Assembly: GCA_003724285.1 (NCBI GenBank)
Contig: RHFB01000039.1
Coordinates: 1 to 36,570 of the forward strand
Length of the DNA stretch: 36,570 nt
Reading direction: 5' to 3'
Source of the DNA: Nitrosopumilus sp. H13
GTDB lineage: Archaea; Thermoproteota; Nitrososphaeria; Nitrososphaerales; Nitrosopumilaceae
The notes below the pieces were generated by a model. It searched no databases, was not told the origin of the DNA, and saw nothing but the letters and a program-made list of their open reading frames with translations. This document shows positions 4,721-36,266 of the stretch, piece after piece (position 1 is the first letter of the stretch; the number at the start of each line of letters is the position of its first letter). The position numbers were made by a program, and so were the translations under genes.

Positions 4721-4777
4721 CTGTTCCCCTGGTAAAAACAGGTGATCTGAAAGCATGTCATTTACTTGCCGTCCGGA

Positions 4778-13175: not shown

Positions 13176-13475
13176 GTGGGGCGCATTTCCAGCAGGATGC
13201 AAAAGCAGGAAAACCCCACGTATCTAAAGGCAATAACCATACGGGACATCAGCGACGTCCATTCCATAAAGGAGGACATCAAAAAGGGAATGATCCTGAT
13301 ACTGAGGGTCACTCCGCTTGCCCAAAAGGACGTGGTGCAGCTGCGCAAGGTCGTAGAGGAGCTGTACTCGATTGCAAAGAACTCTGGCGCAGACATTGCA
13401 AGGCTCGGCGAGGAGAGGATCATAGTTGCGCCTACAAGCGTCAAGATATGGAAGCCAGAGTACGATCTAAAATAG
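13176..13475 (+). CDS. sepF: SepF-like cell division protein
   Basis: YLKAITIRDISDVHSIKEDIKKGMILILRVTPLAQKDVVQLRKVVEELYSIAKNSGADIARLGEERIIVAPTSVKIWK matches the archaeal SepF (DUF552) pattern. Confidence 0.8.
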   Translation: MGRISSRMQKQENPTYLKAITIRDISDVHSIKEDIKKGMILILRVTPLAQKDVVQLRKVVEELYSIAKNSGADIARLGEERIIVAPTSVKIWKPEYDLK

Positions 13476-16010
13476 CTTTATAGCTTCCTGAATCTGCGGA
13501 TAGTGTGCAGACAGCCTGTACATGCGCCGAATGTTCATTGCAAGGCTTTCTGACTTTTTGCGCTCCCCGTGGTTTACAAGCACCCTCCGGAGCTTGGGCC
13601 TGAGCCGCTGCACAAACGACATGAGCTGGTTGTAGTCGCTGTGGCCGCTAAAGCCGTCAAGCTTTTCTACCCCGCAGTTGATTGTGACTGCCTCCACCTT
13701 GCCGTCCTTGCCGACCATCGTGGCCTGCCTTGATCCGTCTAGTACCCTTCTTCCCAGGGTGCCGTTTACCTGGTATGACACAAACAGCACCTTGTTCTTT
13801 TTTTCTGGCGCCACGTTCTTAAAGTACTCGAGTACGGGGCCGCCCTCGAGCATCCCGGATGTTGCAAGAATTATGCACGGCGAGTCCTCCCTCATCGGCT
13901 CCTCCCTGCCGTCTGCATGCTCGATGTTGGTAAAGTACTCCGAGTCAAACGGGTTGTCGTCAGTCTCGAGTATCTTTTGCCGCAGCTCCCTTGCCAGATA
14001 CTCTGGGTATGACTCGTGGATTGCAGACGCCTCTGAGATCATCCCCTCTGTGAACACGGGCGCCTCTACTATCTTTCCCTCCTTCATGTAGTGGTCTATC
14101 ACCATCATGATCTCCTGCGCGCGCCCTACTGCAGGTATCGGTATGAGCACCTTGCCCCCCTCTGCAAGCGTCTTGTTCACTGCAACTATAAACGCAGACT
14201 CTACCTCCTGCCTGCTTGGCTGGATGTCCTCCTTTAGGCCGTACGTGCTCTCGATTAGCAGCGTCTCTGCCCTTGGAAAGTTCCAGCTTGCGGCCTCGAA
14301 GAGGATGCTTTTTCCGAACTTTATGTCCCCCGAGTACACAAAGTTGTGGTTCCCGTTACCTATGTGAAAGTGGCACAGCGCAGAGCCGAGTATGTGGCCG
14401 GCGTTTGCAAGCACCAGCTTTATGTCCGGCGAGATGTCCGTGACCGTCCCGTACGGCAGGGTGATCGTCTGCCTCATGATCTGCTTTACGTCGCGCTCAG
14501 AGTATATGGGGGTCCGGCCCTGGGCGGCTGCCACCTTTATCGCGTCAAGCTGGATCAGGTTCATCATGGGAAGGGTCGGCTCGGTACAGTAGACGGGGCC
14601 CTTGTAGCCGTACTTGCACAGCGCGGGCAGAAAGCCGGTGTGATCTAGGTGCGCGTGCCCTATTACTACGGCATCTAGCTCATCAAGCGTCAGGTTTACA
14701 AAGTCAAGCCTCGGAAACGCGTCCATTGCAGAGCGCGCCCCGGGGTTTATGCCGCAGTCAATTAGCACCTTGCTTTCCGGGGTTGCAAGAAGCAGCGACG
14801 ACCTGCCGACCTGCCCGAACCCGCCTAGCGTGTAAAGGGAGATCTCCGTGCGATCGGAGAGGCGCGGCCTGAAGATCTCGTCTCCCACCTGCTTGAGCTG
14901 CCTGCTCCGCTCAGAGGCGTGCTGCTTTAGCGTGGCGTTGATGGTCTGTATCGTGCGCGACGGTATGGTGGTGGCCTTGCGGATTCGTATTCTCCACCCG
15001 GTCTTTTCTGTCACGTCCGTATGGTTGAACATCTTTGCGTCGCGCTGCAGGAGCCACGGCCTCTTTGCCTCAATTGACACCTCGCCTGTGGCCGTGTCAA
15101 AGATGGTGCCCTGCAGGTCTGCGTCCTTTGGAACGCAGTCTGCAAGTATTTTTCTTACCTCGTCTTCTGGCTTGCGTATGGACTCGTCGGTCCTCACCAC
15201 GATCCTCTTTTTGATTACATTTACCAGGCTTGAGATCGTCTCGTTGTTCTCAAGGAGGTAGCGCGGCGTGGTCGTAAACAGGGCGATGCGCGGTCCCTCG
15301 TACTCGATCTTTGTGACATTCGCCTCTTTTGGTATACTTTGCAGTATGACTGCCATTATGTTCTGGCTAGAAGGTATTTCTTTTTGTTGTTTTCTTTGCA
15401 TTAAATCACTATAGATTGATGGGAACCCGTCCTTGTCCATTGTTGCAATGTTTATCCCGTCGCCTGTTCCAATGTTGCGCACGATTGCGGCCTTTACCGC
15501 AGTCAGCGCCAGTCCCTTTGCATCCTCGATTGACAGGCCGTCCTTGTATCCCTCCTCTAGGACGCCATAAGCCACGGGCGAGCCGCTGCCGGTCGTTACA
15601 AACGACTTTTCCTCCACCGAGCCGAACATGTCAATGTTGAAGAGCGCCGGCCCCTCAGAGTCGTATCCGCCTACGAGTATGTCTGCAATGAACGGATAGC
15701 CCCTGTTCTGGTGGAATATCAGCGAGCAGAGCCTTGCAAGGGAGTGGATTGGAATGGGAACCTGCTTTTCAACCCTGTGCAGGTTCGAGTGGTATCTGAG
15801 TATGTCAACGATGTTTTGCGCGTCTGCCACTCCGCCTGCAAGCGTCAGTCCGGCGTGGTGGTCTATCTTTTGGATCTTCATGGTGTTGTTATTGGCGATA
15901 AAGTAGCCTGCGCTGGCCCTCATGTCGGCGCACAAGACGATGCCGTCACGGGCTCTGATGCCCACCGTAGTGGTTCCGTGCAGAATCTTTTCTTCAACAT
16001 TGTTCGACAA
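13467..16010 (-). CDS. Single ORF: proteasome beta subunit (N-terminal 203 codons) plus aCPSF1 KH/metallo-beta-lactamase/beta-CASP nuclease (C-terminal 644 codons)
   Basis: N-part: propeptide then HGTTTVGIRARDGIVLCADMRASAG with catalytic Thr; C-part: TKIEYEGPRIALFTTTPRYL KH-like, IGHAHLDHTGFLP, YSGDIKF, GHSDYNQL; no stop between, junction ...PSIYSDL|MQRKQQ at 15401. Confidence 0.85.
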   Translation of the reverse strand: MSNNVEEKILHGTTTVGIRARDGIVLCADMRASAGYFIANNNTMKIQKIDHHAGLTLAGGVADAQNIVDILRYHSNLHRVEKQVPIPIHSLARLCSLIFHQNRGYPFIADILVGGYDSEGPALFNIDMFGSVEEKSFVTTGSGSPVAYGVLEEGYKDGLSIEDAKGLALTAVKAAIVRNIGTGDGINIATMDKDGFPSIYSDLMQRKQQKEIPSSQNIMAVILQSIPKEANVTKIEYEGPRIALFTTTPRYLLENNETISSLVNVIKKRIVVRTDESIRKPEDEVRKILADCVPKDADLQGTIFDTATGEVSIEAKRPWLLQRDAKMFNHTDVTEKTGWRIRIRKATTIPSRTIQTINATLKQHASERSRQLKQVGDEIFRPRLSDRTEISLYTLGGFGQVGRSSLLLATPESKVLIDCGINPGARSAMDAFPRLDFVNLTLDELDAVVIGHAHLDHTGFLPALCKYGYKGPVYCTEPTLPMMNLIQLDAIKVAAAQGRTPIYSERDVKQIMRQTITLPYGTVTDISPDIKLVLANAGHILGSALCHFHIGNGNHNFVYSGDIKFGKSILFEAASWNFPRAETLLIESTYGLKEDIQPSRQEVESAFIVAVNKTLAEGGKVLIPIPAVGRAQEIMMVIDHYMKEGKIVEAPVFTEGMISEASAIHESYPEYLARELRQKILETDDNPFDSEYFTNIEHADGREEPMREDSPCIILATSGMLEGGPVLEYFKNVAPEKKNKVLFVSYQVNGTLGRRVLDGSRQATMVGKDGKVEAVTINCGVEKLDGFSGHSDYNQLMSFVQRLRPKLRRVLVNHGERKKSESLAMNIRRMYRLSAHYPQIQEAIKLF

Positions 16011-33579: not shown

Positions 33580-34029
33580 TCAGTTCTGATGTATAAATTC
33601 CCTCGCCTGCTCTTCTGTGGGCTGGTGTACAAACGGAACCTTGATGGTTGCAAAAAGAATGTCGTACTCCGTAGTCCCCGAGATCTTGACATTCCTGGAC
33701 TCCCCCGAATCCGAATCCGTCTCAAACGTGCCGCTGGCATGAACGCTTCCCAGCGGAGGCAGCGTAAATGGCTCAAGATGGCCGCTTCCCACAGTCCGTC
33801 CGTCTGCGATGATCTCAAACTTGGTCTGGCCGGCAGTCAGTAATAGCAGCGAGGGATTCTCAAACTCTAGCACAATGTCGTATCTTGAGCGTTCCCCGTA
33901 CTCGTCTAGCAGCTCGCTCTGGGCTATGTTTACCTGAATCTGGGTTGCAGAGGCATACTGGGTATACCCAAAGGCTACCATGCCTGCCACAAAGAGGGCC
34001 ACGAGACCCACCTTTCTGGAGCGTTCCAT
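33580..34029 (-). CDS. LEA14-like membrane-anchored protein
   Basis: N-terminal TM; RSRYDIVLEFENPSLLLLTAGQTKFEIIADGRTVGSGHLEPFTLPPLGS; start trimmed from 34131. Confidence 0.65.
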   Translation of the reverse strand: MERSRKVGLVALFVAGMVAFGYTQYASATQIQVNIAQSELLDEYGERSRYDIVLEFENPSLLLLTAGQTKFEIIADGRTVGSGHLEPFTLPPLGSVHASGTFETDSDSGESRNVKISGTTEYDILFATIKVPFVHQPTEEQAREFIHQN

Positions 34030-34150
34030 GAATGCCTGTCTACAAAACGCCATTTTAACCCCGGAGGGAAAAAATCCGAATAAATTGTGTAAAAGTTTTA
34101 ATCTAATCTCTAACCTCATTAGAGCTAACAAAATAAATCAAAACCGGGAG

Positions 34151-34573
34151 GTGGATTCAAGGGACTTTTACGTTGATAACCAGACCATAGGCGAGGTAAT
34201 AGAGGGCATCTCCGGCCACCTGCCTGAAGGCAGCGCCAGGATGGTATACGGGTCAAAATCTGCAAAAGTCGCAGGCGATGCATACGGTCTGGGAGGCCTG
34301 GATGATGCAGAGGCATTCGAGCCAGAGTTTGCCGACCCAAAGCATATCGACCCCAGCGAGTTGAGATCAAAGCTGCGGATTCTGGAGACGAGCAGTTTTT
34401 TTGACAGGCCGCATACGGTCACAGAGACCGTCGAGCAGCTCCGGGAGTATGGCTGGGCTGCAAGCCCGCTAGATGTATCAAAGGAGCTGGCAAGGATGGC
34501 ATCAAACAGGGAGATTGTGAGAAATTCAGCAGAGAATCTGACCCACTATGTCCGGCAGCCTCTAGCTAGCTAG
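34151..34573 (+). CDS. Hypothetical protein (GTG start)
   Basis: DSRDFYVDNQTIGEVIEGISGHLPEGSARMVYGSKSAKVAGDAYGLGG...; longer track start at 33980 would overlap the divergent gene. Confidence 0.6.
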   Translation: MDSRDFYVDNQTIGEVIEGISGHLPEGSARMVYGSKSAKVAGDAYGLGGLDDAEAFEPEFADPKHIDPSELRSKLRILETSSFFDRPHTVTETVEQLREYGWAASPLDVSKELARMASNREIVRNSAENLTHYVRQPLAS

Positions 34574-35816: not shown

Positions 35817-36266
35817 TTATTCCACTGTTACACGAACCATCTGGGTCTTTTCCAGGGGGCAGTCGTTCCCATCCCTTTTGAGACTGACAATCTTGTCTGC
35901 CACGTCCATGCCCTCTGTCACCTCGCCAAACACGGTATATTCCCTGTCTAGGAACGTGCTGTCGCTAGTCACTATGAAAAACTGCGAGCCTGCACTGTCC
36001 GGATCCTGGGATCTGGCCATGGAAACCATGCCTCTCAGGTGGGATTTTGAGCTAAATTCGGCCTTTATGGTGTATCCGGGACCCCCCATTCCCCAGGTGT
36101 CCTTGCTGCCTGCCTTTGTGTTGGGGTCGCCCCCCTGAATCATGAATCCGGGAATGACCCTGTGAAACAGGGTTCCGTCATAGAATCCCTCCCTGGCCAG
36201 CTTTTCAAAGTTTCGTACGGTCTCTGGTGCCAGTTCGGGCGCAAGTTTAAAAGTAATACTGCCCAG
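35817..36266 (-). CDS. Cyclophilin-type peptidyl-prolyl isomerase; start codon unclear (CTG at 36266?)
   Basis: GSITFKLAPELAPETVRNFEKLAREGFYDGTLFHRVIPGFMIQGGDP...SQFFIVTSDSTFLDREYTVFGEV. Confidence 0.9.
   Translation of the reverse strand: MGSITFKLAPELAPETVRNFEKLAREGFYDGTLFHRVIPGFMIQGGDPNTKAGSKDTWGMGGPGYTIKAEFSSKSHLRGMVSMARSQDPDSAGSQFFIVTSDSTFLDREYTVFGEVTEGMDVADKIVSLKRDGNDCPLEKTQMVRVTVE

Follow-up and report, generated by a model that had tools for sequence, protein, structure and literature searches.

The window analysed here, a 36,570-nt stretch of the Nitrosopumilus sp. H13 draft genome, contains an open reading frame (ORF) in which a proteasome beta subunit (PsmB) runs directly into the ribonuclease aCPSF1. 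This raises the question of whether the organism makes one protein from the two, or whether two separate genes have been joined in the sequence. The frame is real as sequence, as the first-pass annotation had reported: in translation it is a single uninterrupted ORF of 847 codons (13467-16010, minus strand) with a TTG start and no stop at the junction. The features that bear on its origin are listed in Table 1.

Table 1 Features of the psmB-aCPSF1 reading frame and of a second short loss in the window.
Feature	Position	Strand	Basis
psmB reading frame, codons 1-196 (propeptide, catalytic residues)	15423..16010	-	PF00227; identity to relatives
Blunt junction, 31 nt missing	15421..15422	-	Alignment with G025 (L115) and four further relatives; blastn gap at 15422
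Out-of-frame segment encoding PSIYSDL	15402..15422	-	Translation; comparison with L115
Native psmB stop TAG, now in the +1 frame; TGA next at 15406-15408	15409..15411	-	TAGTGATTTAATGCA junction motif same in relatives
aCPSF1/FttA reading frame, 644 codons, own ATG and upstream GTGAT	13467..15401	-	TIGR03675; identity to G025
Second blunt loss, 53 nt, 5' end of a conserved gene	34147..34148	+	blastn gap; start of matches in relatives

The PsmB part has the propeptide, the Thr/Asp/Lys catalytic residues and the domain of the catalytic beta subunit of the archaeal 20S proteasome. The Pfam domain Proteasome (PF00227) was found at ORF residues 11-190 (1.1e-49), and Thr13, Asp29 and Lys45, read from the translation, are the equivalents of Thr1/Asp17/Lys33 behind a short propeptide; the annotation had pointed out the propeptide and the catalytic Thr, and the other two residues are there too. 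Residues 1-196 are 86-90% identical to the psmB product of most close relatives. Beyond Phe196, however, the C-terminus (which is 14 aa long in almost every relative and reads RLLTGEQKKSVINL in the nearest) is swapped for seven out-of-frame residues, PSIYSDL, and the subunit is thus not complete as had been claimed. The TIGR03634 equivalog score of 215.8 bits is just under the cut-off of 224, and the complete C-terminus is lacking. The 14 residues are present in an intact relative; in alignments with archaeal beta subunits of known structure they fall at the C-terminus, which holds the last helix. Compared with the nearest relative, dN/dS was ~0.04 for psmB and likewise ~0.04 for aCPSF1; psmB is as strongly constrained as its neighbor and is therefore not decaying. 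An old fusion with relaxed selection on psmB was rejected, given this strong purifying selection. The same genome encodes two further proteasome-like subunits (L084, G000:C45:46-486, and L083, G000:C7:5642-6208), with 27% and 30% identity to PsmB.

The aCPSF1 part is full length, in agreement with the annotation. TIGR03675 matched ORF residues 216-846 end to end with 798.3 bits against a cut-off of 580.2 bits, and Pfam placed KH_TffA, Lactamase_B, Beta-Casp and RMMBL in residues 216-838. With these KH, metallo-beta-lactamase, beta-CASP and RMMBL domains, its own ATG and 95-96% identity to the protein of G025, it is internally no different from the aCPSF1/FttA transcription termination ribonuclease, and its apparent N-terminal extension is the only departure. 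The internal Met noted earlier at 15401 is present, and the start region GTGATTTAATG is intact and unchanged from relatives. The GTGAT ahead of this ATG could pair with the 3' end of archaeal 16S rRNA.

A scan of public genomes revealed how the two genes are normally arranged: psmB and aCPSF1 adjoin in the same order and on the same strand, as separate genes, in 80/80 loci. The gene neighborhood itself is already known, having been described across archaea by the comparative genomics of Koonin et al. 2001, as discussed for MTH1203 in PMC3095777; a functional link between the proteasome and RNA decay was proposed from that gene context (Koonin et al. 2001 as cited in PMC3095777). The window shares genes, order, strand and adjacency with all 80 loci, but the relatives have a separating stop codon, whereas a 31-nt loss removes the separation in the window. 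Within the genus, the junction usually reads GAACTT-TAG-TGATTTA-ATG, with a psmB of 210 residues ending in TAG and the aCPSF1 ATG 7 nt on, and the stop-TGATWTAATGCA string was found in 69 of the 80 loci. In the window the native TAG(TGA) persists at 15411-15406 and lies in the +1 frame. A TAATG had earlier been pointed out as a motif from which a single upstream indel would restore a stop/start overlap; the motif does occur in the other shifted frame, but it was rejected as the native junction, because psmB of the relatives mostly ends in TAG 7 nt ahead of the ATG. In five loci (L001, L025, L027, L039 and L047) the spacer is 40-43 nt, not 7, and the start GTGATTTAATG was kept in 3/3 of those inspected (L001, L025 and L047).

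Comparison with the nearest relative, G025 (94/95% protein identity in PsmB/aCPSF1), located the loss exactly. G025 is co-linear with the window and has 31 extra bases ahead of the junction; over the junction region the alignment of the two DNAs has one gap, TTCC[GCCTCTTGACAGGCGAGCAAAAGAAATCAGT]CATCAATCTATAGTGATTTAATG, in which the 31 bracketed bases are absent from the window. Most of the genus has a segment of the same length here, and both flanks of the gap and the native TAGTGATTTAATG are retained in the window. Since 31 is 1 modulo 3, the psmB frame bypasses its TAG and continues in that of aCPSF1, reading Pro-Ser-Ile-Tyr-Ser-Asp-Leu past the old TAG (15411-15409) to the aCPSF1 Met at 15401. 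The alignment of psmB C-termini and gene boundaries that had been proposed as a check thus yielded separate genes elsewhere and a window without 31 nt. A single upstream indel had also been suspected; there is one, as a clean loss of 31 nt and not of a single base.

A genuine fusion of the Rosetta-stone type would be expected to recur, and the window's genome (G000) stood alone among the matches listed in 95 genus genomes and 300 genomes across the phylum. No unbroken PsmB-aCPSF1 match over residues 1-847 was among the matches listed in the 95 genus genomes except the window's own, and the other matches listed across the phylum cover essentially one gene or hold at least one stop. Long reported frames were rejected as further fusions, as the psmB frames close separately in the eight genomes checked; G017 was dismissed as a second fusion after separate frames were confirmed in its DNA. 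The broken psmB of L023 is not another deletion: it contains a run of N, and its junction sequence is the same as in G017. The junction and the intact allele were also looked for in viral contigs, and neither was found there. We conclude that the ORF, as judged from these genome comparisons, is not a conserved fusion, and the earlier suggestion of a true fusion linking protein and RNA decay finds no support, the frame being the product of a 31-nt frame-shifting loss with no other listed case.

Other genes of this assembly that ought to be intact have similar losses. A survey covered ~361 kb over which the window's genome and G025 align, with gaps in repeats, shadow ORFs or intergenic DNA excluded from the count. 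In it, an sdhB-like gene (succinate dehydrogenase iron-sulphur type by Pfam; L142 ~8969, G000:C27) had an out-of-frame loss of 37 nt and nadA (L202 ~7587, G000:C47) one of 40 nt. The 53-nt loss within the window is probably of the same kind. It removes the start codon and first residues of the ORF at 33937-34570 (plus strand), for whose G025 copy no Pfam match was found; the G000 match starts at query residue 10, and those of six other relatives at residue 1. The sdhB-like gene, nadA and this gene are whole in six other relatives. The sister draft G025 in turn lacks 35 nt of pheT (L187 ~5730), 40 nt of a corA-like gene (L161 ~1877) and 38 nt of a cofH-like gene (L250 ~1378), the corA and cofH names having been read from the sequences with no database result behind them. 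The two drafts may share an assembly pipeline. The deletion excess consists of seven events picked by inspection with one sister draft as the reference, and all seven joins have 0-1 nt of microhomology, the pattern that plain abutting of sequence ends would give; deletions by slippage tend to leave several bases. A control of eight neighborhood genes from 80 other genomes, with 187,223 aa aligned, gave no comparable losses, its one frame break being a run of N; the control loci had been selected for matching the window ORF well, so that psmB and aCPSF1 are biased towards intact copies and the flanking genes are unbiased. The window also differs from G025 by 36 nt missing at 36264 and 82 nt extra at 4721.

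Taken together, we consider it probable that two ordinary neighboring genes were joined by an assembly-type deletion. A stretch of 31 nt near the 3' end of psmB would have been dropped in assembly, and the resulting frame shift would carry psmB past its TAG into aCPSF1; most probably the organism itself has two separate genes, for a 210-aa PsmB and a 644-aa aCPSF1. That the loss arose in the assembly rather than in the cell is what we infer, and an assembly error is favored over a new protein because similar short stretches are missing from other core genes of the assembly. The annotation's alternative of a recent indel or sequencing error is thereby supported; the indel has an exact position, and sibling deletions accompany it elsewhere in this assembly. 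Assembly errors account for many of the frameshifted genes in draft genomes (PMC11017572), and the present case resembles such assembly-induced false pseudogenes and frameshifts in its frame-breaking indels in conserved genes of a fragmented draft; it differs in that the indel fuses two genes rather than truncating one, and the losses are 31-53 nt long.

A real and recent 31-nt deletion in the strain is the less likely origin, though one that deserves some weight. It would leave psmB without its stop and C-terminus and yield a read-through fusion together with free aCPSF1 started at the native site; internal re-initiation is possible in that case because the start region is intact, and a separate aCPSF1 could still be made in this way. 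The sequence is clean and free of N, the ORF is fully open across the junction and the aCPSF1 start region is the same as in relatives, all of which are consistent with such an event. However, both this draft and its sister have blunt out-of-frame losses in further core genes, the joins have next to no microhomology, and selection on psmB is not relaxed, although a very recent loss would leave no such trace. In a lineage with a reduced genome, the losses in sdhB, nadA and psmB might in principle be genuine. PheT is expected to be essential, and no living cell would be expected to have its single copy of pheT broken, so a biological origin of the losses in these drafts is unlikely. That aCPSF1 is tethered to the 20S proteasome in a functional fusion coupling protein and RNA decay is more doubtful by far, and we regard it as the least probable reading. 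The conserved neighborhood and the link proposed from it (Koonin et al. 2001 as cited in PMC3095777) speak for it, as does the nearly complete coding of both proteins, but there is no second case among the genus and phylum matches listed and the join does not keep the frame of the C-terminus in relatives. It would also cost the beta subunit its C-terminal residues, and it is unlikely because these correspond in alignment to the C-terminal end of archaeal beta subunits of known structure.

Core genes that look fused or broken in the window's draft or in its sister draft should not be taken as biology until the reads have been checked. It is very improbable that the 31-nt deletion is real in a living archaeon of the Nitrosopumilus type and that this organism makes a fusion protein that physically links proteolysis to transcription termination and RNA decay; if true, this would be direct physical evidence for the long-suspected archaeal link between the proteasome and RNA processing.
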